Assembly: GCA_009885735.1 (NCBI GenBank)
Contig: VFKD01000268.1
Span: 1-33,772, forward strand
Length of the DNA: 33,772 bases
Source: a bacterium
GTDB lineage: Bacteria > Armatimonadota > Chthonomonadetes > Chthonomonadales > CAJBBX01
Direction: 5' to 3'
This document shows positions 1,167-17,649 of this stretch, in pieces. The notes under the pieces are model-generated. The model did no database searches. It was not told the DNA's origin and saw only the letters and a list, made by a program, of their open reading frames with translations. The stretch's first letter is position 1, and each line of letters opens with the position of its first letter. A program made the position numbers and the translations under genes.

Positions 1167-2750
1167 CTACCCGACTGCTGCCGGAGCGTCGCGGTACTCA
1201 TCTACGGTGCGACACGCGAATGCGGCGCCGGCGCCCCTAGCCCGAAGCGCCATGAGCAGCGCCTTCGCGGTGTCCAGCGAGGTGAGGCATGGCACTCCCA
1301 CCTCCACCGATGTCCGCCGAATCTGAAGCGCCTCACGCTCGGAGCGCTTGTCCGTTGAGACCGTGTTTACTAGGAGATCGACCTTGCGTGCGCGAACGAG
1401 ATCGAGCAGGTTCGGCGAGCCTTCGTGAATCTTCAGGACGGACTGGCAATCGATTCCGCGGCTGCGCAGAAACGCAGAGGTGCCCGAGGTAGCATAGACC
1501 GAATAGCCAATCTCTGCGAATCCTCGCACCACTGCAACCGCCTCTTCCTTGTCCTGCTCCGCGATTGTGGCGATCATCGTGCCCATTAGGGGTACGTCTA
1601 CGCCGCTGGCCACCATGGCCTTGTAGAGCGCCCGACTATAGTCTGTGTCCATTCCCATGATCTCGCCGGTAGACTTCATCTCCGGGCCCAGAACAACATC
1701 TACGCCTGTGAGCTTTGGAAAGCTGAATACCGGCGCCTTCACCGCAATGAGATTGCGGCTTGGGTAGAGGCCGGACGAATAGCCCTGCTCGCGCAAGGAG
1801 CGACCAATCATTATCTCTGTGGCTACCTTCACCATGGGAATGCCGGTGATCTTCGAGAGGTAGGGAACCGTGCGGCTGGCGCGCGGGTTTACTTCGAGAA
1901 CCTGCGCAACCTCATTCTCAACCACATATTGGATGTTCATGAGCCCTCGAACCTCTAGTCGGAGCGCCAGTGCTGTGGCAGTTTCGACTATCTGATCGAT
2001 CACAGACTGAGAGAGCGACTGCGGAGGGTAGACCGCCATCGAGTCTCCAGAGTGGACGCCCGCTCGCTCGATATGCTCCATGATGCCCGGCAGAAGACAG
2101 TCCACTCCGTCGCAAATGACATCGACCTCCACCTCCTTGCCGAGCACATACTTGTCCACCAGAATGGGGGCTCGCGGCGACACGTCCACGGCGTATCGCA
2201 TATACGTTCCCAACTCATCTGGATTGAAGACAATCTCCATGGCTCGCCCGCCCAGGACGTATGATGGCCGCACCAGCACCGGGTAGCCAACCTCCTCGGC
2301 CACGCGGAGGGCGGCTTCGGCACTGGTTACGGCTCGTCCAGCGGGCTTTGGAATGCCAAGTTCCGTAAGCACCCGCTCAAAGCGGTCTCTGTCCTCCGCG
2401 AGGTCGATGGATTCGCAGCTTGAGCCCAGGATAGGAATTCCGGCATCGTGCAGGGGACGCGCCAGGTTGATGGCTGTCTGTCCGCCAAACTGCACGACCA
2501 CGCCCTTTGGCTGCTCTCGGTCCAGAATGTTGAGGACATCCTCGGAAGTCAGCGGCTCGAAATAGAGCCTGTCCGAAGTATCGAAGTCGGTACTGACAGT
2601 TTCTGGGTTATTGTTGATTATTACAGCCTGGTAACCCGCGTTTCGCAACGCCGTAACGCAGTGTACCGAGCAGTAATCGAATTCAATACCCTGACCAATT
2701 CGAATGGGGCCTGAACCCAAAACAACAATTGTTTCGCCAATATCCGGCAT
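1167..2750 (-). CDS. carB: Carbamoyl-phosphate synthase large chain, C-terminal half (split CarB)
   Basis: The 527-aa protein is the second half of CarB. It opens with [20 protein letters not shown], the start of the second carbamoyl-phosphate domain. It carries the ATP-grasp core ([14 protein letters not shown]; the metal-binding [15 protein letters not shown]) and ends with the MGS-like regulatory domain from about residue 385 ([27 protein letters not shown]). In bacteria with intact CarB this half phosphorylates carbamate to carbamoyl phosphate, and the MGS domain binds effectors such as UMP or ornithine. The ATG at 2750 follows AAAGGTTAATCA, a reasonable SD. Together with the N-terminal half (568 aa) it adds up to a full-length CarB of about 1,095 aa, so nothing is missing. 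The two halves are separated by a methyltransferase and a CADD gene. Split CarB is known from methanogens and Aquifex. Confidence 0.96.
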
Positions 2751-2785
2751 TGATTAACCTTTAAGAATGTGGGGTCGTCACTCCT

Positions 2786-2837
2786 GGGCTCGGCAAGCCC
2801 TGCACCCTACGCACGAACGTCTGGTATATGCGTAGGG
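2786..2837 (-). promoter_or_regulatory. Two hairpins in the leader of the carB C-terminal half
   Basis: The 118-nt gap upstream of this carB half contains two inverted repeats. One is a perfect 9-bp stem (CCCTACGCA at 2805-2813 pairing with 2829-2837, 15-nt loop). The other is a 5-bp GGGCT/AGCCC stem at 2786-2800. There is no U-tract, so a classic terminator is unlikely. They could be an mRNA-processing or stability element that sets the level of this half relative to the other. Confidence 0.45.
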
Positions 2838-2868
2838 CGTACGGCTCGCCGCACCCGGCAATCGGGCT

Positions 2869-3537
2869 CTAACAGGCGATCTCGTGGCGGCGGCATACGC
2901 CCGAGAGCATCTCCCACATCGCGTCAAGCGCGCGGTCTCCCGCTGCCGCGGCCTCGGCCTCGTTGGCGCCAACCGTATCGAGGATCATCGCGCGCTCTGC
3001 GGCAGCGTGCTCTTTGTCTGCCTCAATGTGAACCGTGAAGTACTTGTAGTCCTCAGCAATAGTCATCCCATAGTGCGCCTTGAGGCCGGATATCTTGGAC
3101 TCAGACACCGCAGGTATCTGGCTCTCGTATGAATAGAGCGCCGCCAGGCCGTCTGCAACCGAACAGTCTCGGCAAATCGAACGGAAAGTGGACACCAGGT
3201 TCTGGGTCTCGGGCCACGGCGCAGTGTCGTGAACCTGACCGTTCGTCAGCCCAAGACCCTCGGCGAAGCGCAGCCACAACTGCGGATGATTCGGCGCGCC
3301 AGCCTCCTCGTCCACGAGGTTCTGCAAAATCTGCTTGCGCACGCCCTGGTCGTCACAATGCGAATGAACTGCCGAGAGGTAGGTGGGGAATGCCGCCACA
3401 TGGTGATAGTACTGCGCGGCGTAATCTCTCAGCGCGTCAAGGCTGAGTTCGCCTCGGGTCCAAGCCTGGTAAAACGGATGCGTAAGAAGGTGCTTCGCGG
3501 CGACTTGCGCGTCCAACGTCTCGATAATACTGTTCAT
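2869..3537 (-). CDS. CADD-family diiron/Fe-Mn oxygenase, likely p-aminobenzoate synthase
   Basis: The 222-aa protein has the heme-oxygenase/TenA-like helical fold and matches the CADD folate-related family. From memory, Chlamydia CADD uses Glu81, His88, Glu142, His174, Asp178 and His181 as metal ligands, with Tyr27 and Lys152 as the sacrificed residues that become p-aminobenzoate. At a constant offset of -4, this protein has Glu77, His84, Glu138, His170, Asp174, His177, Tyr23 and Lys148. Motifs seen are NLVDEEAG, YSYESQIP and VHIEADKEH. The ATG at 3537 is chosen because AAAGGAGAG precedes it; an upstream start would add ten residues without an SD. The likely role is supplying p-aminobenzoate for folate in the cytosol, probably as a single-turnover 'suicide' enzyme. 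It sits between the two carB halves. Confidence 0.88.
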   Translation of the reverse strand: MNSIIETLDAQVAAKHLLTHPFYQAWTRGELSLDALRDYAAQYYHHVAAFPTYLSAVHSHCDDQGVRKQILQNLVDEEAGAPNHPQLWLRFAEGLGLTNGQVHDTAPWPETQNLVSTFRSICRDCSVADGLAALYSYESQIPAVSESKISGLKAHYGMTIAEDYKYFTVHIEADKEHAAAERAMILDTVGANEAEAAAAGDRALDAMWEMLSGVCRRHEIAC

Positions 3538-3600
3538 GACCAACTCTCCTTTCGAGCGTAAGTACAACGTGTTTGCATGATGGCTCTTGCCGTACCGTGT

Positions 3601-4416
3601 TCAGTGGGACTTTCGAGCGAAGACCTGCGTCATGCGGACCATTCCAATCACTATTTCCTCGTTTGCTGCAATCGCTCTTAGCGTGCCAAGAAGAGCGCTA
3701 AGCTCTTCGTCCGTTGTTAGACCGGCGGCAATGAGTGCCGATGCACACTCCTCAAGCGTCCAGTCCGGCAGATGCTTCTCGGGTCCTCGTGCATAGACCG
3801 GCTGAGACAGATGCATCGAAATTTCTTCAAATCCGGCTGCACGTACCAACCCATACAGTTCAGATCCAATCTGAAAGCGACGGCCCCGCTTCTCTCCAAG
3901 CTCTCGGTAGAGTTCGAAGGCTCTGTCAAACGCTTTCGAGGGTGGGCAAGCGAACGGTGTGCAAAAGTCGCCGTCCTCCACTGCTAATGTACCCCCAGGC
4001 TTCAAAAGCCGTCGCACCTCGTCCAGCGCCAGGTTCGGATGCCCCAAGTGCATCAGCACAAATCGTGCGTATACCAGGTCGAAGCTGTCCGCTTTCAGAC
4101 CGGTCGATTCCGCGCTCGCTACCCAGGTGTTGATGTTGCCTAACTCAGTAGCCTCAGCACGCCGTGCGGTCACCTCCACCTGCTCGGCGCTCACATCACA
4201 CGCGACGACGGAGCCCGATGGGCCCACCTGCTGAGCCATCCAGAGTGCCATGTTGCCCGATCCGCAGCCAACTTCCAGGACCCGCATTCCCGGTTGCAGG
4301 CCCGCACGCAGCAGAAACTCACGCGAATCGGGACCATGGACCTCGTTCAACACGGCTAGGCGCGCCTCGGCCGACGTGCCGGTTGCCAACACATAGTCGG
4401 CATTGGCGGCCGTCAC
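3601..4416 (-). CDS. Class I SAM-dependent methyltransferase
   Basis: The 271-aa Rossmann-fold methyltransferase has motif [13 protein letters not shown] at residues 46-57, an acidic residue after strand 2 (VVACDVS), and motif IV-V region [21 protein letters not shown] with a following [12 protein letters not shown]. These place it in the UbiE/Methyltransf_11-25 superfamily, which methylates small molecules. The substrate cannot be read from the sequence. Its ATG overlaps the stop of the N-terminal carB half by 4 nt (ATGA), so translation is probably coupled to it. CADD follows 63 nt later. Its place next to a p-aminobenzoate enzyme makes a cofactor or quinone-like substrate conceivable, but that is only neighbourhood inference. 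Confidence 0.85.
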
Positions 4417-6119
4417 GCGGCTTCCTCGTTGGTCCTAATCTGCTCGTCTTCTGAATCGTAGCACGAGTAGAAGTAAGGCGTCGCAGCTTCAAACTCCGCC
4501 GCGCAGGTGTCCACCATCTTGTAGGTAGGCAGAATTCCGAATGCCTTCCGCAGGCTGCGAACAAGTTTCTCCGTGAGGCCGGAGAGCTCTGCGATCTGCC
4601 GGTCCGCAAATCCGAGCCGCTTCGCATCCAGCAGCATGTCGGCTGCCGGCGAGTCTTTGTCGAGCGTGTCGGTGAGCGCGGCGATGTCGCGCCCATACAC
4701 CTTTAGTCGCGTCTCCATGGCCACCAGATTGTGAATCTTATGCAGAAACCACTTGTCCACGTTCGAGAGCGCGTGAATCTCCTCCACCATCATTCCGCGG
4801 CGCAGCGCCTCCGCGATGGCAAACAATCTCTCATCGTTCGGCACCTGTATCTTGTCTTCGAGTTGAACATCCGAGAGCGAGTTGACACCCTTCGCGGAGA
4901 GACCATGCGCCCCTATCTCAAGGCTGCGAATGGCCTTCATGAGCGCCGGTTCAAAGGCTCGGTCGATGGCCATCACCTCGCCGGTAGCCTTCATCTGCGT
5001 CGTGATGCGCCGGTCGGCGAGTGCGAACTTGTCGAACGGCCAGCGTGGAATCTTCACAACGCAATAGTCGAGTGCGGGCTCGAAGCACGCCAGCGTCTTC
5101 TTGGTGACGGCATTCTGTATCTCGTCCAGGCGGAGGCCAATAGCGATCTTTGAAGCGACACGTGCGATGGGGTAGCCGGTCGCTTTGGACGCAAGGGCGG
5201 ACGACCGCGAAACCCTTGGATTGACCTCGATAATGAAGTACTGGTAGCTGTGTGGGTCGAGTGCAAGTTGGACGTTGCAGCCGCCCTCTATCTCTAGGTT
5301 TCGAATAATTCTGAGAGAGGCGGTACGCAGCATCTGATACTCTTTGTCCGAGAGCGTCTGCGAGGGCGCCACCACAATTGAGTCCCCAGTGTGGACTCCC
5401 ATGGGGTCAAAATTCTCCATATTGCACACGGTGATGCAAGTGTCGTTTGCATCCCGCATCACTTCGTACTCAATCTCTTTCCAGCCGATGAGCGAGCGCT
5501 CGACCATTACCTGGTGTCTAGGGGAAAGGCTGAGGCCACGGGAGCCAATCTCCATTAGCTCCTCGGGATTGTGGGCTACCCCTCCGCCCGTACCTCCCAA
5601 GGTGTAGGCGGGCCGAACAATGAGGGGCCAAAGGCCCACATGGCAGACCTCGGCTAGGGCCTGCTCGGATTCGACGATCCAACTGTCCGGCACCGGCTCG
5701 CCGATGCGCCGCATGAGCGAGCGGAACTCCTCGCGATCCTCCGCCATGCGGATGGACCGAAGCTGGGTGCCAAGCAATCGCACGTTGTACCGCTCCAGCA
5801 CCCCCTCCTCGGCCAGCTTCGTCGCCAAGTTCAGTCCGGTCTGGCCTCCCAGCGTGGGCAGAAGGCCGTCGGGACGTTCAAGAGCAATCACACGCTCGGC
5901 AAACTCCACATTGAGCGGCTCGATGTAGACGCGATCCGCCGTCTCTACGTCGGTCATGATCGTGGCCGGATTCGAGTTGATGAGAACCACCGAGACGCCC
6001 TCTTCGCGCAGCGATGCGCATGCCTGCGTGCCGGCGTAGTCAAATTCAGCCGCCTGCCCGATGATGATCGGGCCGGAGCCGATTACAAGAACCTTTTTTA
6101 TGCTTGGGTCGCGTGGCAT
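4413..6119 (-). CDS. carB: Carbamoyl-phosphate synthase large chain, N-terminal half (split CarB)
   Basis: The 568-aa protein is the first half of CarB. It opens with [20 protein letters not shown] and carries the first ATP-grasp domain ([36 protein letters not shown]), which in whole CarB makes carboxyphosphate and uses ammonia tunnelled from CarA. The oligomerisation domain follows to the end. It stops just after [20 protein letters not shown], exactly where intact CarB enters its second synthetase domain. The break is thus at a natural domain border, not a frameshift inside a fold. It lies 37 nt after the M1 peptidase gene and overlaps the methyltransferase start by 4 nt. It should assemble with the C-terminal half (1167-2750) and CarA (11210-12295) into the holoenzyme that feeds PyrB and arginine synthesis. 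Confidence 0.97.
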
Positions 6120-6156: not shown

Positions 6157-8673
6157 CTATTTTAGTTTGTCCAACGCTGTCTGAGCCGCGGTTTTTACCT
6201 TTGCGTCCTTTGTGGTCGCCACCAGGGACTGCAGGGCAGCCGTCGCTGCCTTGTCGCCGCGGAGCCCGAGAGCGGCTGCGGCAATCTGCACCACATTCAT
6301 ATCCTCGTCCATCAGGTAGGAGACAATGGTGGACGTCGCGACCGGCTTGTCCTTGAACGTTCGCCCAAGATGAGCAATCGCTGCATTTCGGACCGAAGGA
6401 TGCGTAGCCGCCGCGGAGTGCTTCAGCAGGAGCTCAAGCGCCTGGTCGTTGGTCGCCTGGGCCACCGCCTCAATTGCGGCAGTGAGTACCGTGTTTCGGC
6501 GGTCCGATATCGCGCAAGCCCGTGCAAACGTCGTAACAGAGGCGTTGGCGTTCAACTTGGAGAGCGAGTGCAGCGCGGCTCGAACAACGCTGAACTGCTC
6601 CTTGGAATTCACGAGGCTATCCAAAGCCAAGGTTGTCGCCGCATCCTGCGGCAGCAGTCCGAGGCTCCTCGCTGCCAAGGCGCGCAAGCCTTCATATGGG
6701 TGCTTCAGCGCCGCCAGTAGATCTGGTCGAATAGCCGCAGGCATTCTGCTTGAGGCGAAGTTCAGAATGTGTACTGGCGTATCGGGATTCTTGTCCGCTA
6801 GGGCTGCCCGAAGCACGGTGGTCACAGCGTCTGCGTCCTTCGACTTCGCCACTAGGGCGGTGAGTGCCGTCTGCCTGTCCAGGATGCAGGAAGCATTGGC
6901 TGCCACGGCGCGATTTGCCTCGGGAGTTCTGGTCGGAAGCTTGAATTCGGCCAGGAGGTCGTGGTCCGGGTCGAAGAGCACGGCATCAGGCGAAGCCGAA
7001 CAGGGAACTTTGAAGGTCTCGTTGACCTTGGATACCCTGAGAACATGCCGCCTACTGTTCGAACCTGTCAGCACATCCAGGGAGAGGTCTAGCTCGTAGA
7101 CCGGTGTTCCGTCAGTTGTTGATTGCTGCTGCTTCACGTCTACTGTAAGCATTCCAGAAGCGGCATCATGCGTCCACGAGACACCTAGCACAGGATGGCC
7201 GGGCCGATAGTACCATTGGTCGAAGAAGCCTTCTACGTCCACACCGGTCTCATCGGTGAGTGATCTGCAGAGATCGTGCGTGTCCACCACTCCGAATGCA
7301 TGCTTGGTGAGGTAGGCCCTCAGGCCGCGAAAAAAGGGCTCGTCGCCCAGCTTCCGGCGAAGCATGTGAAGCACTGCGGCAGCCTTGGGATACGAGTAGC
7401 TGTCGAACAGGTTGTCTGGATTGGCATAGAGCCGAGTAGCGATAGGCCGCCTATACTCCTTGGCGGCGGCAATTGATGCCTGCAGGCCGCCGTTACGCTC
7501 CAAGTCGAACGCATCGCGGCCGTCCCTGTGTTCGAAATAGAGCTGCTGGAAGTAGGTTGCAAACCCTTCGTTGAGCCAGATGTGCCCCCAGTCGCGGCAT
7601 GTGACAAGGTCGCCGAACCACTGATGTGCAAGCTCGTGGGAATTGAGCGACGACATGGCCCATTTGCCGTCTCGTGCCTCAACCAGAGAGCCCTCGCCAA
7701 GCGTGGTTGCGCTAATGTTCTCCATGCCGCCGCCAAAGTCAAACAGGGCGGTCTGAGCATACTTCGCATAGGGGTACTTAATGCCAAGGCGGTTTGAGAA
7801 GAAGTCGAGCATTCGCTTGGTGTCGCCAAACGATGTGGGAATCTCATTCCCGGCGCCCTTAGGCACGACGTAGAACAGGTCCACGTCTTTCCACTTGTCG
7901 CGAACCACGTCCATCTCGCCGCCGGCGAGGGAAAGCAGGTACGTGCTGTGAGGTTGTGCCATACGCCAATTGAAGGTCTTGGTCTTGGCAGTACGGTTCT
8001 CCTGGACCTTCGTCAGCTTGCCGTTGCCCACCACGAACCACGAACTGGGCGCTTCAACAGTTACCTCGGATGTGGTGCGGTCATTTGGATAATCGTAGAT
8101 TGGGACCCACTCCCGGTTGCCAACAGTCTCGCCCTGCGTATAGAAACCGGGATGCACCTCAGGACGAGAGCGGCTCGGCTCGATCCAGTGGAAGCCATAT
8201 AGGCCATTGAGTGCGGTCTTGCCTTCGCCCTTAGGCTTCACCTTGTAGGTTATTGCTACGTTTAGTTTCGCGCTTCTGGCTACAGGAGACTGTAGCTCTA
8301 TGCGAAGGCGATCCCCGTCGTGGCGAAAGGGTGAGGACAATCCAGACACGCTGCAAGCCGACACTTCCACCACCTCGGACGCATGCATCTCGATGCTCCG
8401 CAGGCCGTTGGAAAGTGGAGAAAGCGTGTGAGTGACAATGCCGGAGATGCTGCGATTCTCCCAGTCGAGCTTGATCTTGAGGTCGACGTGCTGCAGGTCA
8501 TAGGTCCGACTGGGTGCGTAAGTGACCTTGGCGGCAGGAGCTTGGAACGGGTTGTCCGGATTCTGGCCGGCGTACGCAGATACTACCCCTCCAATCGCGA
8601 GCAACCCTACGCCGATCCACGCGCAACACTTTACGCACGAACGAATTGAACCTACCCTGCACTGCTGCTTCAA
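6157..8673 (-). CDS. Exported M1 family aminopeptidase with C-terminal HEAT-like repeats
   Basis: The 838-aa zinc aminopeptidase begins with a signal peptide (hydrophobic core at about residues 18-34, cleavage near AYAG). The M1 substrate-recognition motif GGGMEN is at 314-319. The zinc site is HELAH at 346-350, with the third ligand Glu369 in LNEGFATYF. After the catalytic domain a beta-rich part (about 500-600) leads into helical repeats of about 30 residues ([21 protein letters not shown] and similar) that look like HEAT repeats; they may shape access to the active site. The enzyme should act outside the cytoplasmic membrane, trimming N-terminal residues from peptides. It overlaps the preceding glycosyltransferase gene by 4 nt and precedes carB-N by 37 nt, so it shares the pyrimidine transcript without an evident pathway link. 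Confidence 0.92.
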
Positions 8674-10457
8674 TTCCAGCTCCTCAAAGTCATGGACGCT
8701 CGCTCGTCCTCAACCGGATAGATACCCACGGTCCACCGCAGGACGTCCAGCTTCATCAATCGCCGCTCTGGAGAGACGAGCTTGGGATAGTGCTCTGTCC
8801 AGAACTTCTCTTTCCATCGGTCATCCAGGATTGCGATGAACCTTGGCGCTATCCCTGCGGTTGTGGGGCTCTTATCGTTGCATAGTCCCGGAATCACGTT
8901 TACTGCTCGGAGCCTGTTGTCCAGGCAGAGCCCATTCGCCACATCGCCGATGATTGTGGCGCCTGCAGGCAGCGCGGCAGCGAGCCGCAATGAGGCTTCG
9001 TGCTGTGTGAACTTCATGTGAGTCGCCCAGTCGCCCAGCCAATAGGTATTGACCAAAACCCACCCGCCGACTAAGCAAGCGTACTTATTGATCTGAAATC
9101 GCCGCCTGCAGCAGACCTCCGGGAGGCTATACGCAGTTCGCCCAACCACTATTGCGACAATGGTCAACACGACGACGGTCCAGGTGGGACTGAGTGTGCC
9201 CTCGTGATGCACCAGCGCCGTGGCGCTGTGATAGCCCAGAAATCCTCCGAGAACTGCCCTCTTGAGCCTGTCGGCCTGCCTGGTGCTGTGTACCACGAAT
9301 GACCACCGGCCGAGGTCCGACAACACGATGGCGGCGACGGCATAGAGCGCCGGAAGAGTCGTGACATAGTACCTTGTGGGTGAATAGTTGACCAGTGCTA
9401 GCGCGGCCCAACCCACGCTCATCCAGAGGATGACAAACACCGTCGGCGCACCGGACGAGTGGCCTTTGTCCGCAGGTGATTCTGGACGGACCCTCAAAAC
9501 GCGAGTCCCCCATCCTATCGCGACGAGGGCCAGGCAGAAGAGTATGGGCGTATGCCGAAATAGGTACGGAGAGATGCCTCGGTAATCGCCGAACACGGCG
9601 CTTAGGAGGTTCTTGCCTAGCTTCCCAACGCTCTGCGGCAGCAGTTGGTGATTGAGATAGTAGCTGGACATTCTGCTCAGCTCGGCCTGGTGGGGCAGGG
9701 CCCACACGACGTAATAGACAGCCAGCGCGCCGGCAAGGCCCGCGCCGACCGCGGCGAGGTCCGCCTTTGCCTGAATCCTAGACACCTCGCCTCGCCGTAG
9801 ACTCCACCACAGTGCTGCGAAGGGCGCAGGAAAAAGGTAGACGTACAGCGAGCGAGTCACGAAGGCAAGTGCGATCAGAACCCCAGAGGCAGCCAGCAGG
9901 GCCCAACGCCTGCGTTTGTCGGTCGCTGCCGAGGCACATGCGAATGCCGCAAATGCACCTGTCGCCGCCGTGGCGGCCGGAGTGTCCATCAGCGCCATTC
10001 GGCTGAAGAGCAGCCCAATGTGGTCCAGCCCTGCGAAGAGGGCCGCAAGCGCCGCGGCTCGATGCCCGACGGCGGCTCGCACGCCAACGAAGAGAAACAC
10101 GACGGTTGCAAGTCCAAAAGCAACCGAGATAAGCCTTGCCGAGACCGCGCTTGGACCAAAGTTCAGAAACACCATCGTCTGAAGTGCGTGGAGCACCGGC
10201 GAGATGAGACTGTTGTTGAATTCGTCCTGCCTGGCCGCGCCGAAGAGTGCTATATTGCGAGCGTTGTGGATATAGAAGCCTTCATCCGTTAGTAGCCCGG
10301 CGCTCCAATCCAGCCGTAGATAGGCATCCGAGGTCAGTGCAACGAGCCGCAGGGCGGCCATTAGCGCTACCGCCCCTACAATCAAAACTACCGTCGCCGG
10401 AGTCCGCCGAATTGAACTGGGCTGTTCGGTGGCAATTGGCGTAATGCGTGCGTTCAT
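8670..10457 (-). CDS. GT39/ArnT-like membrane glycosyltransferase
   Basis: The 595-aa polytopic protein has about ten or more hydrophobic helices. The pattern is that of the dolichyl-phosphate-mannose protein mannosyltransferase/ArnT superfamily (GT-C fold). A first extracytoplasmic loop carries the acidic pair Asp58-Glu59 (LLTDEGFYIHNARNIALFG), and a second loop carries FSRMALMDTPAA with Asp158. The C-terminal ~150 residues are soluble and extracytoplasmic. Family members move a sugar from a polyprenyl-phosphate carrier onto lipid or protein outside the membrane; donor and acceptor are not evident here. It follows lepB by 69 nt and overlaps the M1 peptidase start by 4 nt (ATGA). Together with lepB and the exported peptidase it forms an envelope-related block inside the pyrimidine transcript. 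Confidence 0.8.
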   Translation of the reverse strand: MNARITPIATEQPSSIRRTPATVVLIVGAVALMAALRLVALTSDAYLRLDWSAGLLTDEGFYIHNARNIALFGAARQDEFNNSLISPVLHALQTMVFLNFGPSAVSARLISVAFGLATVVFLFVGVRAAVGHRAAALAALFAGLDHIGLLFSRMALMDTPAATAATGAFAAFACASAATDKRRRWALLAASGVLIALAFVTRSLYVYLFPAPFAALWWSLRRGEVSRIQAKADLAAVGAGLAGALAVYYVVWALPHQAELSRMSSYYLNHQLLPQSVGKLGKNLLSAVFGDYRGISPYLFRHTPILFCLALVAIGWGTRVLRVRPESPADKGHSSGAPTVFVILWMSVGWAALALVNYSPTRYYVTTLPALYAVAAIVLSDLGRWSFVVHSTRQADRLKRAVLGGFLGYHSATALVHHEGTLSPTWTVVVLTIVAIVVGRTAYSLPEVCCRRRFQINKYACLVGGWVLVNTYWLGDWATHMKFTQHEASLRLAAALPAGATIIGDVANGLCLDNRLRAVNVIPGLCNDKSPTTAGIAPRFIAILDDRWKEKFWTEHYPKLVSPERRLMKLDVLRWTVGIYPVEDERASMTLRSWN

Positions 10458-10526: not shown

Positions 10527-11204
10527 TTACTCACCTTGATTTTCTGGCCCCGCATCCCGTAGTGGTTTGTTGAAGAGCACGCGCACGCACCTACCCACGA
10601 CATTCTTGCGCGGCAGCGGGCCCCATTCGCGACTGTCCTGGCTTTCGGGCGAGTTGTCTCCAACCACGAAAAGTTCGTCCGCCTTCAGAGTAAAAGCCAA
10701 GTCTACGGCATACCCACTGCTGTCCCCGTCATTCACGAGCGTCTGCCAATAACTAGGCAGCGGAATTGGCTTATCGTTAATGGAGATTCCCTCCTCTGTG
10801 ATGAGGAGCGTCTCTCCGGGCAAGCCAAGAACACGCTTAATCAACAGATCTGGAGCGAGGGACGATCGGGGCTTGGCGGTCTGGTCCGGATCTATTTCGC
10901 TCGAGGGATCTATAAAGACGACGATGTCGCCACGCTCAGGAGTTCTCCCCATCGGGTAGGCGATCCACGCCTTGAGTGTAAGAATATGGTCGCCCTCTTT
11001 GAGGGTTGGATACATGGAGCGTGACGGGATATAGTTGGTGGTGTAGGTGTAGACCGCCGCCGTCAGGAATAGCATGATCGGCAGCAGTACTTTCAGTCGC
11101 TTGTTGCGGCGGCGGTTCCATTCCACCTTCTGAGCTGCGCGAGCCAATGCCTTCTCGTCTGCGGGGTCGGATGGCTGGTCGAGGGCTGAAAGCAGTATCG
11201 ACAT
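10527..11204 (-). CDS. lepB: Signal peptidase I
   Basis: The 225-aa protein has one N-terminal transmembrane helix (residues 39-55) after a basic cytoplasmic segment, and an extracytoplasmic catalytic domain. The Ser nucleophile is Ser63 in PSRSMYPTL and the general base is Lys123 in LLIKRVLGLPGE. The family's box E-like VVGDNSPESQDSREWGPLP is present. It removes Sec and Tat signal peptides, so it would process the exported M1 peptidase, the WD40 protein and the Met/Gly-rich protein in this window. Its SD (AAGGGGA) overlaps the stop of carA, with a 5-nt gap between the genes, which ties its translation to pyrimidine gene expression. Confidence 0.96.
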   Translation of the reverse strand: MSILLSALDQPSDPADEKALARAAQKVEWNRRRNKRLKVLLPIMLFLTAAVYTYTTNYIPSRSMYPTLKEGDHILTLKAWIAYPMGRTPERGDIVVFIDPSSEIDPDQTAKPRSSLAPDLLIKRVLGLPGETLLITEEGISINDKPIPLPSYWQTLVNDGDSSGYAVDLAFTLKADELFVVGDNSPESQDSREWGPLPRKNVVGRCVRVLFNKPLRDAGPENQGE

Positions 11205-11209
11205 AGGTA

Positions 11210-12295
11210 TTATCCCCTTCGGCTGCGCAGGAGATCGGCAAACTCGCGAAAGTAGTAGGCGCTGTCGGACGGTCCCGGCGAGGCCTCGGGATGGTACTGG
11301 ATCGAGAACACGGGAAGCTCCCGGTGCCGCAGGCCCTCTACTGTCCCGTCGTTGAGGTTGATGTGCCCAACTTCCATTCCGCCCGAGAGGGTGGCAGGGT
11401 CCAGCGCATATCCGTGGTTCTGGGACGTGATATAGACTCGGTCAGTCGAGAGATCCCGAACTGGATGATTGCTGCCCCTGTGTCCGAAGCGAAGCTTGAA
11501 CGTGCGAGCGCCGAATGCGGCACCCAGCAGTTGGTTGCCAAGGCAGACGCCCATGATGGGGACTGAGTGGGCGAGCTTTTTCACATTCTGCACCAGGTGC
11601 CCAAGCATCGCGGGGTCGCCTGGTCCAGGTGAGAGCATGACTCCGTCGGGCTTGCGCTCGAGCATCTCCTCGGCAGAGGTGGCGCAAGGATAGACCGTCG
11701 CGCGGCAGCCCACTGCTGCCAAGCTCCGCATGATGTTGAACTTCACGCCGCAGTCGAGCAAAGCCACCTCGAATTCGGGATCGCCCTCGTACGGCCAGAC
11801 GTAAGGCACCGGCGTCGAGACCTGGCTCACGTAGTCCGTACCGTCATATCCGGGCCGCGCCCTGAGCGCATCAAGCGCCTCGGCAGCAGAGTCCTCGGTG
11901 GTTATCACGCCCATCATCACGCCGTGTACCCGCAGCTTGCGCGTGAGAGCCCGCGTATCGATTTCGCGAATTCCGACCACGCCTTTGTCGCGAAGAAAGT
12001 CGTGAAGCCCGCCGGTACAGCGCCAATTACTGGGTACGTCCTCGACCGTTCGAACGATGAAGCCCTCGACCTGTACTCGGCGGGATTCGAAGTCGTCTGC
12101 ATTCACACCATAGTTGCCGATGAGCGGATAGGTGAGCGTGACGAGCTGGCCCGCATACGATGGATCGGTGAGGATCTCCTGATAGCCGGTCATACCCGTA
12201 TTGAAAACCACTTCGCCAAACGCTCGACCAGACGCTCCCAGAGACCTGCCCTCGAACAGCGTGCCGTCTTCTAATGCAAGTATTGCGGTGCTCAT
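11210..12295 (-). CDS. carA: Carbamoyl-phosphate synthase small chain
   Basis: The 361-aa glutamine amidotransferase subunit is of normal family length. The N-terminal CPSase_sm_chain domain (GTLFEGRSLGASG, NTGMTGYQEILTDPSY) is followed by a class I GATase domain with Cys251 in GVCLGNQLLGA, His335 and Glu337 in QYHPEASPG, and the oxyanion segment LSPGPGDP at 222-229. It hydrolyses glutamine and passes ammonia to CarB. Here its partner is made as two separate polypeptides from genes 5 and 9 kb downstream, so three chains must assemble. It starts 9 nt after the amidohydrolase stop with a poor SD, suggesting reinitiation, and ends 5 nt before lepB. Confidence 0.97.
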   Translation of the reverse strand: MSTAILALEDGTLFEGRSLGASGRAFGEVVFNTGMTGYQEILTDPSYAGQLVTLTYPLIGNYGVNADDFESRRVQVEGFIVRTVEDVPSNWRCTGGLHDFLRDKGVVGIREIDTRALTRKLRVHGVMMGVITTEDSAAEALDALRARPGYDGTDYVSQVSTPVPYVWPYEGDPEFEVALLDCGVKFNIMRSLAAVGCRATVYPCATSAEEMLERKPDGVMLSPGPGDPAMLGHLVQNVKKLAHSVPIMGVCLGNQLLGAAFGARTFKLRFGHRGSNHPVRDLSTDRVYITSQNHGYALDPATLSGGMEVGHINLNDGTVEGLRHRELPVFSIQYHPEASPGPSDSAYYFREFADLLRSRRG

Positions 12296-12304
12296 ACTGT
12301 GGGA

Positions 12305-13936
12305 TTAACCTGCCACTGCGTCTGCGCCATGAACCCACTCGCCGCCGGACATAGTTGCGAGCACACGCGCGCCCTCAAGGTGATCAATCGTCCAATCCTC
12401 TCCCGCTGAATCCACAATGCAAATGTCTGCCCTCATTCCAAGCGTCAGGCTGCCTACCTCCATCTCGTCAAAGCTGCTGTAGGCCGCCCAGTGGGTGTAG
12501 TTCTGAAGTCCATCAAACGCACTGATGCGCTCGTCGGGACCCAGAACGGCGCCCGACCGCGTGGTGCGCAGGCATGCGGCGCGAATTCCGTCAAGCGGAG
12601 CACCCGGCACGATGGGGCAATCCGAGCTGAACGGCACACCCACTCTGAGGCTCTGGAGCGTCGCCGTTGGGTTGATTCCGCTCGCGCGTTCGTGGCCGAG
12701 TCCGAGCACATAGGCGTCGCCCAACCTGCTGAGAAACTCCGGCTGTACGACTGGAACGATGCGTTCGTAGGCGATTCTGCGCAGCAGATCTTGCGGCAGC
12801 ACCATCGCGTGTTCTATCCGGTGCCGACGATCGGCGCACTCGCTCCCTTCCTGCGCAAGGTCGTAGGCATCCAACACGGCCTCAATGGCCGCGTCGCCTA
12901 TTGCGTGAACTGCAACCTGCCATCCCAATAGGTGTGCCGCACCGATGTATTCCTGCAGCTCCTGCTCGTGATAGAGGAGCATACCCATGCCGCTTCCGTC
13001 CACATAGGGCTCGCGCAGTGCTGCGGTCCGCACAGTCAGCGCACCGTCCGCGAACAGCTTCATCGCGCCAAGGCGTACTCCAGAGGGTTTACCTCCGGCA
13101 TTCTCCACAGCCTCGCGCATCTCCGCCCGAACGGGCAGATCCTCGGGACCGCCGAAGCAGGGCGCGTGGGGAAACAGCGTCGTTCGGATGGCGCCACCGC
13201 ATGCCGCAACTGCGCCATACGCCGCTATCTCATCCGCGAGCGAGTAGCAGCCCGTGTTCATGTCCGACGCCGACGTGATGCCATTAGCCGCCAATCGTGC
13301 GTGTGCCGCACGGATGGCCGCCGCCATCTCCGCTCGTGTGGGAGCAGGCAGCGCGCTCGACATCAGTCCCATGGCGTTTTCGAGGAGTAGGCCGACCGGC
13401 TCTCCATCCGAGTCTCGCACGATCTCGCCGCCTGGAGGGTCCTCTGTCGAGGAATCAATGCCTGCTAGCCTAAGTGCCGCACTGTTTGCCACCGCCGCAT
13501 GCTTGCTGGTCTGCACCACGTAGACTGGCTCGTTTGGATAGGCAGCGTCCAGGTCGTGGCACGTCGGATGCCAAGCGCCGGGAAAGGTGTTCTGGTCGTA
13601 ACGGCTGCCGCGAATCCAAAGCGCATCTGGATTCTCGGCGCGCCACTTCCGAAGGGCCACGACCATCGTCTCAACGCTCGTCACTCCCGCATCCGGCGAG
13701 AGATCGGCGGTGCGCAGGTCCAATCCGTAAGGAAGAATGTGCATGTGGCAGTCGTTGAATCCCGGCAGCAGCCACTGGCCGTTCAGCTTGTGCGTTACGG
13801 ACCCAGGGGCGCTCGGAGCCTCGGCCCGAGGTCCGGAGTAGGCAATGCGACCATCGCGCACCAGCACGCACGAATCCCGCAATGTCTCGCCCCGACACGT
13901 GAGCGTGCGCACGCCTGTGATGAACCTATCTGCCAC
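12305..13936 (-). CDS. YtcJ-like metal-dependent amidohydrolase
   Basis: The 543-aa amidohydrolase is of the Amidohydro_3/YtcJ group. Near residue 70, LLPGFNDCHMHI carries the His-x-His metal pair of the TIM-barrel superfamily. Later metal or catalytic segments include VAVHAIGDAAIE, RHRIEHAM and FSSDCPIVPGAPL, where the last Asp is the usual catalytic residue. These enzymes hydrolyse amide or imide bonds; the YtcJ group often has no assigned substrate. I place the start at the GTG at 13936, 2 nt after the previous stop, because a longer frame (25 more residues) runs through the end of the upstream gene and lacks similarity. It sits between the pyrimidine genes pyrC and carA, so a pyrimidine-related cyclic amide is possible but unproven. 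Confidence 0.85.
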   Translation of the reverse strand: MADRFITGVRTLTCRGETLRDSCVLVRDGRIAYSGPRAEAPSAPGSVTHKLNGQWLLPGFNDCHMHILPYGLDLRTADLSPDAGVTSVETMVVALRKWRAENPDALWIRGSRYDQNTFPGAWHPTCHDLDAAYPNEPVYVVQTSKHAAVANSAALRLAGIDSSTEDPPGGEIVRDSDGEPVGLLLENAMGLMSSALPAPTRAEMAAAIRAAHARLAANGITSASDMNTGCYSLADEIAAYGAVAACGGAIRTTLFPHAPCFGGPEDLPVRAEMREAVENAGGKPSGVRLGAMKLFADGALTVRTAALREPYVDGSGMGMLLYHEQELQEYIGAAHLLGWQVAVHAIGDAAIEAVLDAYDLAQEGSECADRRHRIEHAMVLPQDLLRRIAYERIVPVVQPEFLSRLGDAYVLGLGHERASGINPTATLQSLRVGVPFSSDCPIVPGAPLDGIRAACLRTTRSGAVLGPDERISAFDGLQNYTHWAAYSSFDEMEVGSLTLGMRADICIVDSAGEDWTIDHLEGARVLATMSGGEWVHGADAVAG

Positions 13937-13938
13937 GG

Positions 13939-14601
13939 TTAACTGCCCAGCTCGCTGTCGGCGTGTTTGGCCAGCACCCAGTGGTGGACACTGGGGTACG
14001 AGTTGGACCATGCTGGTGATGACGGGCCAGAACCCTTGTGAACGACATACACCGTTGGCTCACGGCTCTTCACCACCACCGGACTACCATCGGAATCTCG
14101 GCCAATCTCCCAGAACTGCTCGGTTTCCAGAGTGGGATCGACGCTAAATTCAAGAGTGTCTCGTCCAGGCCAATAAAACTGCGAAATCAGGGTGACGTCC
14201 AACCGTGAAGAGCCCGTGGGGGATTCGATGGACGAGTAATGCTCGAGTATCTGCCTTACGGAAGGATGAATGCGCACGAAAGGTCTGATGGCCTCTGCCG
14301 TGCGTTCACCGAGATGCCAAGAGTTCGGCTGTGCCAGCACAACGGTTGCCTGGTGGTTCGCTTCATCTTCTGCCATTGCAAGTATCTCGCGCAGCCTCTC
14401 GCCGCGAGCCTTCATTCGTTGGTCCAGGTCGTTCATGTCTGCTCTGCGGAGCTTAGGCTGGTCTACTCTGGACCTCGCTCCAATTCCGGTGAAGTCTGCA
14501 AGCATTCGGAGGAGGCCACGGAAGCCCCCGGCCTTACGCATCAGACGTGATCCAGCCACGGATGCCAGCAGCACGAGTATGAGCAGCACGAGAACTTTCA
14601 T
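13939..14601 (-). CDS. Hypothetical membrane-anchored protein
   Basis: I do not recognise this 220-aa protein. It starts with a hydrophobic helix (residues 2-17) followed by a basic stretch, so it is probably anchored with the rest in the cytoplasm or exported. Residues 55-80 are charged and helical. The C-terminal half is mixed alpha/beta with no familiar motif, containing VTLISQFYWPGRDTLEFSVD and TVYVVHKGS. It lies 40 nt after pyrC and is followed almost without a gap by the amidohydrolase, so it belongs to the same transcript. Its base composition is like its neighbours, giving no sign of recent transfer. A function cannot be assigned. Confidence 0.7.
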   Translation of the reverse strand: MKVLVLLILVLLASVAGSRLMRKAGGFRGLLRMLADFTGIGARSRVDQPKLRRADMNDLDQRMKARGERLREILAMAEDEANHQATVVLAQPNSWHLGERTAEAIRPFVRIHPSVRQILEHYSSIESPTGSSRLDVTLISQFYWPGRDTLEFSVDPTLETEQFWEIGRDSDGSPVVVKSREPTVYVVHKGSGPSSPAWSNSYPSVHHWVLAKHADSELGS

Positions 14602-14641: not shown

Positions 14642-15913
14642 TCAAACCTCAACCACCCTGCCACCTAACAATGTGAAGCAAGTCTTGCCGGTGACCGTCA
14701 TTCCATCAAACGGAGTGTTGCGCGACTTCGACCGGCCCTCTGCCGCCCTCGCGGTCCACTGGGCGGCAAGGTCGAATACGGCCACATCGGCCACGGCGCC
14801 CTCCGCAAGAGTTCCGCCAGGAATGCCGACGACCTGTGCGCCTGCAATCGTCATTTTACGGATGAGGTCCGGAAGTTCAAGCTTGCCAGGAAGGACCAGG
14901 GTGGTGTAGGACACCGCGAACGAGGTCTCCAGGCCCAGGATGCCGAACGGCGCTTGGTCGAACTCCCGCTCCTTCTCGTAGGGCGCATGCGGAGCGTGAT
15001 CCGTGGCAATAATGTCGATCGTCCCATCCACTAGTCCTTCAATGATGAGGCGGTTGTCTTCCGCGGTTCGTATGGGAGGGTTCATCTTCGCGTTGGTGTT
15101 GTATCCCTCGCAGGCGGAGTCGGTCAGCGCCCAGTAGTGCGGTGCGGTTTCTCCGGTCACTGGGATGCGCCGCATCTTTGCCTTGCGCAAGATGTCCACT
15201 GTACGTCCCGACGAGATGTGCAGCAGGTGCAGGCGGCAGCCGGTCAATTCGCTGAGCAGGACGTTCCGGGCCACCGCAATGTCCTCGGCAACCCTTGGGA
15301 TCCCCGGCAAGCCCATCATCGTGGCAGTCCTGCCCTCGTTCATCGCCCCGCCGCGCGTCAGGGCCTGATCCTCGTTGTGTGTCATCAGAGTCATGCCGAG
15401 CTGGGCGCAATACTCCATGCCTCTGCGCATCGTCTCGGCGTTCTGGATGGGGAAGGCGTCGTCCGAGATGGCGCAAGCGCCTGCTGCCTTCAGGTCCGCA
15501 ATCTCGCACAGTTGGTCACCCTGCATATTCCTTGTGAGCGCGCCAATGGGATAGACTCGTGCGCACCCGACCTCTGCGGCCCTCTCGATGATCTGCCGAA
15601 CCACGGCGGTGGAGTCGATGCTCGGGCTGGTATTCGGCATGCAGCAGACCGCTGTGAATCCTCCCGCAGCCGCCGCTCGCGTGCCGCTTTCGATGTCCTC
15701 CTTGTACTCGAACCCAGGTTCGCGCAGATGGACATGGATGTCGATGAGCCCTGGAGTCACCAGCAGCCCGGAGCAGTCGCGCACCTCATCGCCGTCGGCG
15801 GAGTGGGCCGCAACAACTCCTGCAATCTTGCCGTCCTCTATCACGAGGTCTCCAAAGCGATCAATGTTCTGGGACGGATCCAGAATTCGCGCATTCGCAA
15901 GCACAAGCCTCAT
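14642..15913 (-). CDS. pyrC: Dihydroorotase, class I
   Basis: The 423-aa zinc amidohydrolase cyclises N-carbamoyl-aspartate to dihydroorotate, the third step of UMP synthesis. DIHVHLREPGFEYKEDI carries the paired zinc-binding His and the substrate-binding Arg. AAGGFTAVCCMPNT, GETAPHYWALTD and ATDHAPHAPYEKE (catalytic Asp) are all present, as in the longer class I enzymes that often partner PyrB. The ATG at 15913 gives the usual MRLVLANARIL start, with AGGGAG about 11 nt upstream. A GTG at 15925 with GGAAGAG ahead of it is an alternative that adds four residues. It follows pyrB by about 30 nt. Confidence 0.96.
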   Translation of the reverse strand: MRLVLANARILDPSQNIDRFGDLVIEDGKIAGVVAAHSADGDEVRDCSGLLVTPGLIDIHVHLREPGFEYKEDIESGTRAAAAGGFTAVCCMPNTSPSIDSTAVVRQIIERAAEVGCARVYPIGALTRNMQGDQLCEIADLKAAGACAISDDAFPIQNAETMRRGMEYCAQLGMTLMTHNEDQALTRGGAMNEGRTATMMGLPGIPRVAEDIAVARNVLLSELTGCRLHLLHISSGRTVDILRKAKMRRIPVTGETAPHYWALTDSACEGYNTNAKMNPPIRTAEDNRLIIEGLVDGTIDIIATDHAPHAPYEKEREFDQAPFGILGLETSFAVSYTTLVLPGKLELPDLIRKMTIAGAQVVGIPGGTLAEGAVADVAVFDLAAQWTARAAEGRSKSRNTPFDGMTVTGKTCFTLLGGRVVEV

Positions 15914-15946
15914 TACGTGTACCACTCCCTGAACTCTTCCAGCGTC

Positions 15947-16924
15947 CTATTCACCGGAGCCGCCCATAAGAAGGTAGAGGCAGGCCATACGCACCGCCAC
16001 TCCGTTGGTTACCTGCTGTTCGACAGTCGAGCGAACTCCTCCCACGCCGTCGGCCACCTCGGCGGATATCTCCACGCCGCGGTTCATGGGGCCAGGATGC
16101 ATCACGAGCACATCCGGCTTGGCCCACCTTAGGGACGTATGCGTCACTCCCCACAATCGAGAGTATTCGCGCAGGCTGGGCAGCAAACCGCTCTCTTGTC
16201 GTTCCGTCTGAAGTCTCAGGACCATCACGACGTCCGCTCCGGTGAGTGCGCTCTCCAGGTCGTCGCAAACGGTGACCGGAAGCTGATGCGCCTCGGCAGG
16301 GAGCAGAGTTCTGGGTCCAGCCCATCGCACTGTTGCTCCAAGCCTCGAGAGGCACCAAGCGTTTGACCGCGCGACGCGGCTATGGGCCAAGTCGCCCACA
16401 ATCGCAACGGTGAGGTGCGCGAGATCAAACGGCTTGTCCGGCCGCAAGGCCACGGGATACGTGTCGTCCTCAGCTCCCACCACCTTGTGCTGCCAGATGG
16501 TGAGCGCGTCCAGCAGCGCCTGCGTGGGATGCTCGTGGCGGCCGTCCCCAGCGTTGATCACAGGCACCGAAGTGAATTGAGCCGCCAAATGGGCCGCGCC
16601 GGACGACGGGTGCCGGATCACGATGCAGTCGGCGGTTAGCGCCTCCAGGGTCTTCAAGGTGTCCTTTAGCGACTCGCCCTTGGACACAGAGGATTGCGCA
16701 ACGGCGATATTCACCGCGTCGGCGCTCATGTACTTTGCGGCCAGCTCAAATGAGGTTCGCGTGCGCGTGGAGGACTCATAGAAGAGCGTGATGACGCTGC
16801 GTCCGCGCAGAGTCGGCACCTTCTTTACGGGTCGCTTGAGTATCTCGTTGAAGCCCACAGCGGTCTGCAAGACCTGGTGAATCTGGTCGGTGTCTGTCTC
16901 GCGAATGCTCAGGAGGTCGCGCAT
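15947..16924 (-). CDS. pyrB: Aspartate carbamoyltransferase catalytic subunit
   Basis: The 325-aa enzyme joins carbamoyl phosphate and aspartate. The carbamoyl-phosphate site is [15 protein letters not shown] near residue 50. [13 protein letters not shown] (near 133) and the C-terminal [13 protein letters not shown] complete the family signature. Length matches the catalytic chain; no pyrI-like regulatory chain is seen in this window, in keeping with regulation by PyrR. The start overlaps the end of pyrR by 16 nt, so the two are translationally coupled. Carbamoyl phosphate comes from CarA plus the split CarB encoded further along the same transcript. Confidence 0.97.
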
Positions 16925-17484
16925 GGCTGCTCCTGACCGCTCGGTTCGGGCGGCTCCGCCAGAATGTAGACGGCGTCTTCCCCATCGATCTCCGCCAGCC
17001 TACAGTCCACGTACTGCCCACGGCTAGTGGCAACGTTCTTTCCCACATAGTCCGGGCGGATGGGCAGCTCGCGGTGGCCTCGGTCGAGAAGAACGGCAAG
17101 CTGAATGGCGGCAGGGCGACCCAGGTCGAACAGGGCGGTGATGGCTGCATTCGTGGTTCGGCCCGTGTAGATCACTTCATCCACCAGCACAATCCGCTTG
17201 CCGCTGAGGTCGAACGGCACCTCCGTACGGCCCACCGGAGGGCGGCGCTCGGGGTAGTCGTCGCGGTAGAGCGCGATATCGAGCCGCCCGGTGAGCGGAC
17301 GGATGCCTTCCACTCGCTCAATGAGGTCCGCTAGGCGATCAGCGATGGGTGCGCCGCGCCGCATTATGCCCACAAGCGCGAGGTTCTGCGCGCCCTTGTT
17401 CTTCTCCAGAATCTCGTGGGCAATGCGCGTGATGGCTCGTCGCATTTCGTCGGCATCCATCACCAGGCCGGTCTCGGCGCCCAT
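16909..17484 (-). CDS. pyrR: Bifunctional pyr operon attenuator / uracil phosphoribosyltransferase PyrR
   Basis: The 191-aa protein has the PRPP-binding signature [13 protein letters not shown] at about residues 98-110 and the PyrR-type segment [17 protein letters not shown] at 39-55. PyrR senses UMP/UTP and binds a hairpin in pyr leader RNA, releasing a downstream terminator; it also has weak uracil phosphoribosyltransferase activity. The gene is first in the operon, and its leader contains both the expected binding loop (17597-17609) and a terminator (17500-17527). The ATG at 17484 has GGAG 6 nt upstream, only a few bases past the terminator's U-run, so the terminator decides expression of the whole set. 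Confidence 0.96.
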
Positions 17485-17499: not shown

Positions 17500-17527
17500 A
17501 AAAAACGCCCTCCCGAGAGCGGTGGGC
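17500..17527 (-). terminator. Intrinsic terminator of the pyr attenuator
   Basis: Reading leftwards, GCCC-A-CCG-CTCT-CGG-GA-GGGC forms a GC-rich hairpin (17507-17527), followed by G and six U (17505-17500). It lies in the 5' leader, 16 nt before the pyrR start codon, where a PyrR-controlled attenuator is expected. The competing antiterminator pairing was not resolved by eye. Confidence 0.8.
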
Positions 17528-17596
17528 TCGCGGCAAGGCGCAGGTGATCTCGTAAAGCAGGCCGATAGCTGTTCGAGAAGTCACTCGCCCCTTGTC

Positions 17597-17609
17597 GGCC
17601 TCACTGGGC
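17597..17609 (-). promoter_or_regulatory. PyrR-binding loop (anti-antiterminator)
   Basis: On the minus strand the leader reads GCC-CAGTGA-GGC: a 3-bp stem closing the hexaloop CAGUGA. This fits the CNGNGA loop of the PyrR-binding consensus known from Bacillus leaders. It lies about 80 nt upstream of the attenuator terminator and downstream of the promoter, the canonical order. A lower stem (CGCCC/GGGCG) can extend the hairpin across an internal bulge. Confidence 0.75.
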
Positions 17610-17649
17610 GCGCTCGTTAAAAGGGTCGAAAAGTTTAGTCGTCGCAGGG

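Follow-up and report, generated by a model that had tools for sequence, protein, structure and literature searches.

The closest described relatives of the gene analysed here are the Chlamydia protein CADD (CT610) and NePabS (NE1434) of Nitrosomonas europaea, a free-living ammonia oxidiser. A 2007 comparative-genomics study connected CT610 with folate metabolism genes (PMC1971073). NE1434 complements an E. coli pabABC deletion, the purified protein makes p-aminobenzoate (pABA) out of its own Tyr25 and Lys159, and Chloroflexi and Sphingomonas have been named as further environmental carriers (PMC11965152). The residues at positions 148 and 177 of NePabS are Phe, and the enzyme works with Fe/Fe; a double substitution by Tyr switches it to Mn/Fe (PMC11965152). 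According to a 2026 review, no member of the superfamily other than the C. trachomatis enzyme is known to use Fe/Mn (PMC13108848).

The window, the whole stretch of 33,772 nucleotides that was analysed (contig VFKD01000268.1 of assembly GCA_009885735.1, Armatimonadota, order Chthonomonadales), contains a gene that we assign to this family. The features of the gene are as follows.

2869–3537, minus strand, predicted CADD-family self-sacrificing pABA synthase of 222 amino acids, ATG at 3537 (TIGR04305, residue map, AlphaFold)
3545–3551, minus strand, Shine-Dalgarno-like AGGAGAG 5′ of the CADD ATG (read from the sequence)
3469–3471, minus strand, Tyr23, predicted sacrificed Tyr (CADD Tyr27, NePabS Tyr25; alignment; PMC11965152)
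3127–3129, minus strand, Tyr137, metal-preference residue (CADD Tyr141, NePabS Phe148; alignment; PMC11965152)
3094–3096, minus strand, Lys148, predicted amino donor (CADD Lys152, NePabS Lys159; alignment; PMC11965152)
3040–3042, minus strand, Tyr166, metal-preference residue (CADD Tyr170, NePabS Phe177; alignment; PMC11965152)

The profile TIGR04305 (‘CADD family putative folate metabolism protein’) matches the window protein with 294.7 bits (E = 3.5e-88), 95 bits above its curated cut-off of 200 bits; the match to the CADD family is far beyond chance. Alignment to Chlamydia CADD (CT610/1RCW) gives 89 identities over 189 columns (47%), and the nearest solved structures by sequence are all 4-aminobenzoate synthases (9PJ4, 8VA9 and CT610/1RCW). 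All key residues of CADD are found in the window protein at a single offset of −4, including the six metal ligands [three His and three carboxylates: E81 to E77, H88 to H84, E142 to E138, H174 to H170, D178 to D174 and H181 to H177], the sacrificed Tyr, the Lys and the essential Tyr43, which corresponds to Y39. In 34–35 homologues no variation is seen at Y23, Y39, Y43, H84, W88, E138, K148, H170, D174 or H177, and very little at E77. The AlphaFold model (pLDDT 97.5) has the heme-oxygenase-like fold and superposes on 1RCW and 8VA9 with an r.m.s.d. of 0.8 Å and a TM score of 0.94; neither the Tyr nor the Lys is misplaced in it. Family score, residues and predicted fold thus bear out the first-pass annotation, which had proposed a CADD-type enzyme from the six ligands and the sacrificed Tyr and Lys at one constant offset.

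The functional assignment is strong and the mechanism ordinary. By analogy with CADD and NePabS, the dimetal centre (E77, H84, E138, H170, D174, H177) would activate O2, and the oxidizing equivalent would pass to Y23 via the aromatic residues Y166/Y137 and Y43/W88. The side-chain of Y23 would be cut at the CA–CB bond, leaving Gly behind, with the carboxylate derived from O2 and the amine from K148; each protein molecule would yield one pABA, which FolP would then consume. The same annotation took the gene as a sign that this route is used more widely than by an intracellular pathogen. That part is not new, because complementation by NE1434 and its pABA formation are already published. What is new here is the place of CADD inside a pyrimidine operon, together with testable details of the family; the self-sacrificing route now reaches into a free-living phylum, where its replacement of PabBC shows a clear pattern.

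The window protein differs from NePabS at the two positions associated with metal preference, Tyr at both (the Mn/Fe-type pattern) as opposed to Phe at both with Fe/Fe. Since Y137 and Y166 are both Tyr, a preference for Mn/Fe is predicted. In our tree, built by a quick method with SH-aLRT values as the only support, the window protein groups with sequences of Armatimonadota, Acidobacteriota and Chlamydiota in a clade of 19 members (support 98), and Tyr/Tyr is found at the positions of CADD 141 and 170 in all 19; at the second of these positions Phe is found in the cyanobacterial and alphaproteobacterial sequences and in most of those from Chloroflexi. That free-living bacteria use Mn/Fe is thus a sequence-based prediction, drawn from one mutagenesis study. 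It bears on the published idea that iron restriction inside the host explains Mn/Fe use: Tyr/Tyr throughout a clade whose members mostly appear to be free-living is evidence against the view that the trait arose through host iron restriction, and the trait may instead predate intracellular life or be unrelated to it.

The first-pass annotation had proposed a check of the host genome for pabA, pabB and pabC. TrpE, TrpG and FolP are present. No PabB or PabC was found in the genome, a 5.0 Mb draft in 741 contigs that is 97% complete and in which the absence of a gene is never certain. The sole Chorismate_bind gene is a fragment at a contig end that shares its contig and strand with trpG; it is 60–75% identical to the single-copy TrpE-type genes of relatives and only about 38% identical to their PabBC, and was rejected as a PabB on this difference (75% vs 38%). 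The one class-IV aminotransferase passes the IlvE cut-offs.

Across the phylum nine of 291 genomes pass the TIGR04305 cut-off. A second chorismate-binding gene is found in none of these nine carriers; among the 20 listed genomes of their two families that have no CADD it is found in 12 (Fisher p = 0.003 counted by genome, p = 0.013 by genus; the genomes compared are related, so that all Fisher values given here overstate independence and are indicative only). The one second gene tested from this order matches PF00425 and PF01063 and is therefore a PabB–PabC fusion. Among the carriers, G041 (64% complete) has no chorismate-binding gene at all and G044 has one; the G044 genome (3.4 Mb) is assembled as one contig, so that an assembly gap does not account for its missing second gene. 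A second chorismate-binding gene is likewise missing from eight non-carriers in these two families. Uptake of pABA or another route must therefore also exist in the group, and the absence of PabB alone is no proof that CADD is used. Because PabB and PabC are missing from the host genome and CADD and PabB exclude each other across its relatives, CADD is most likely the pABA synthase of the cell.

A divergent CADD-like clade is present in 38 genomes from three other families of the phylum (L056–L076 and L046 in alignment A2). Its members lie under the TIGR04305 cut-off (115 bits for one of them) and have no other notable family match. The sacrificial Tyr (in HPFYxxW) and Lys (in SKxxGL) are invariant; the metal motifs are changed, with ExxH in place of E(x6)H and HxxD/NxxE in place of HxxxDxxH, so that the last His ligand becomes Glu. 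The model of L046 has the CADD fold at 2.9 Å, with the ligand-bearing helix broken at the HxxD/NxxE motif. A second gene of PabBC size accompanies the divergent gene in one of 38 carriers; in the same families, 41 of the 72 genomes that have no divergent gene contain one (Fisher p = 2e-9 counted by genome, again indicative). By genus the counts are 0 of 22 for divergent carriers and 13 of 20 for genera without the divergent gene. Five divergent carriers do contain a second chorismate-binding gene, but a shorter one. Pfam identifies no folate genes among the flanking genes tested. These data suggest that the clade is a second subfamily of pABA synthases with a changed metal site that replaces PabBC, and it offers a natural metal-site variant for studying the radical path to the sacrificial Tyr.

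A further set of genomes has neither a CADD nor a CADD-like match and contains only one chorismate-binding gene (G034, G035, G037, G038, G046, G047, G050, G083–G087, G089, G091, G096, G097 and G150–G157). In these mostly near-complete genomes no known pABA route is visible, pointing either to auxotrophy or to a further route.

The CADD gene belongs to a run of 13 genes on the minus strand, from pyrR (17484) to carB_C (1167), in which the largest gap is 118 bases. The run is listed below from its leader onwards.

17501–17627, minus strand, PyrR-binding-element-like leader RNA (RF00515, 25.9 bits, under the gathering score of 54)
16909–17484, minus strand, pyrR
15947–16924, minus strand, pyrB
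14642–15925, minus strand, pyrC, dihydroorotase
13939–14601, minus strand, hypothetical protein (no NCBIfam match)
12305–14011, minus strand, amidohydrolase-like protein (sequence reading; weak NCBIfam match below cut-off only)
11210–12295, minus strand, carA
10527–11204, minus strand, signal peptidase I
8670–10457, minus strand, PMT-type glycosyltransferase
6157–8673, minus strand, M1-family peptidase with HEAT repeats
4413–6119, minus strand, carB N-terminal half (carB_N)
3601–4416, minus strand, class I SAM methyltransferase (MTase), overlapping the end of the carB N-half by 4 bases
2869–3537, minus strand, CADD gene
1167–2750, minus strand, carB C-terminal half (carB_C; CPSase large subunit, ATP-grasp 2 and MGS domain)

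The leader ends in a terminator hairpin (17506–17521) followed by a T run. RF00515 matches of 25–51 bits are found in 22 of 25 relatives, many of them on the carB contig, kilobases upstream and on the same strand; as such matches recur upstream of carB, the PyrR-like element is probably real, and as those of the relatives also lie under the gathering score, this lineage may escape the Rfam model. The folding energy of the leader is not unusual (z = −1.18). A scan of the minus strand for promoters and terminators between the MTase, CADD and carB_C gave no site, which is weak evidence either way. CADD and carB probably share a transcript, as parts of a pyrimidine operon attenuated by PyrR. Literature searches returned nothing relevant, either on PyrR control of pABA or on the splitting of carB in Armatimonadetes.

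Two other accounts of the gene would take away its role in making pABA. The window protein could be some other oxidase with the heme-oxygenase-like fold, be it PqqC-like or a further member of the HDO superfamily, and catalyse a different reaction; the PqqC profile TIGR02111 does match it with 59.7 bits and the BesC profile with 52 bits, and its fold is common to PqqC, UndA and TenA. Both scores are however far under their cut-offs (240 and 500 bits), whereas that of TIGR04305 is clearly exceeded, and in the structure comparison CADD is the best match by eight orders of magnitude in E-value, with PqqC superposing at 2.0 Å. Given as well the invariant sacrificial Tyr and Lys and carriers that lack PabB, we reject an assignment to PqqC or another HDO, which we regard as very improbable. 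Alternatively, the gene could be a dispensable copy, decayed or acquired by transfer, in a strain that scavenges pABA or folate, as the relatives with neither CADD nor a second chorismate-binding gene might lead one to expect. The frame and active site are intact, though, the ribosome-binding site is good, FolP is present and the exclusion pattern against PabB holds, so that a dispensable copy is also quite improbable. In our judgement the gene very probably encodes a self-sacrificing dimetal CADD/PabS synthase that would supply the pABA for folate in place of PabB and PabC.

How CADD came to lie in the operon is a separate matter, since its position between the carB halves could be either a selected feature, recruited to pyrimidine/dTMP control, or that of an operon passenger. 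The same-strand run from pyrR to carB_C with its PyrR-like attenuator speaks for recruitment, as does a CADD gene near carB_C in three genera (G000, G031 and G010). The arrangements nevertheless differ: in G031 the order is trpE, MTase, a coiled-coil-like ORF, CADD, a reversed gene and then carB_C, with carB_N on another contig, and in G010 an aminotransferase lies between CADD and carB_C. No car or pyr homologue was found in the sequence flanking CADD in the other carriers examined, and no folate gene is linked to CADD in the stretches examined. Moreover, most genomes of the order have a two-gene carB (window 1167–6119; relatives L133–L148), and most relatives have other genes between the halves, namely a homologous MTase (which in several overlaps the end of the N-half) and/or a protein of about 330 residues. 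Insertion of CADD as the cause of the split was rejected, carB being split in most relatives that have no CADD. The description of CADD as embedded in the carB genes therefore stands as to its position, while the split itself is normal in this group. The proposed co-control of folate and pyrimidine supply likewise keeps the pyrR-headed run and the PyrR-like leader of the window in its favour and loses generality: because CADD lies elsewhere or differently in other carriers, co-control is possible in the window genome and is no conserved design. We consider selected recruitment unlikely. The wider proposition, that throughout Armatimonadota CADD-type enzymes are an ancient substitute for PabBC, including a divergent pABA-making subfamily, and that pABA came under PyrR/UMP control in the window lineage, is tentative and, taken as a whole, somewhat doubtful.

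Two further observations concern neighbouring genes. The genes of about 330 codons found between the carB halves in many relatives have no Pfam match (L137:2460-3425, L139:2635-3636, L141:2677-3708, L142:2665-3654, L144:2596-3621 and L148:3141-4121). CADD-type genes also occur near trpE, within a few kilobases for the canonical gene of G031 and directly beside it for the divergent gene of G107 (G107:C93:30691-32101; L107:2120-6978).

Compared with known systems, the window protein shares its fold and metal-binding scaffold with the PqqC/HDO superfamily (BesC, UndA), whose substrates are different and whose family cut-offs it does not reach. Homologues from other Armatimonadota and from Acidobacteriota (Chthonomonas calidirosea, Acidipila, Silvibacterium and KBS 96) are 51–67% identical to it and have the same residues, but among the genomes examined only the window genome has CADD directly between the carB halves. 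NePabS is alike in its free-living host, in needing no pab genes and in its sacrificial Tyr and Lys (PMC11965152). Chlamydia trachomatis CADD (CT610; PDB 1RCW, 8VA9) is 42–47% identical, and its six ligands, Tyr27, Tyr43, Lys152, Tyr141 and Tyr170 are all matched in the window protein; the chlamydial gene however lies in a folate cluster, whereas the window gene lies in the pyr operon of a free-living host.
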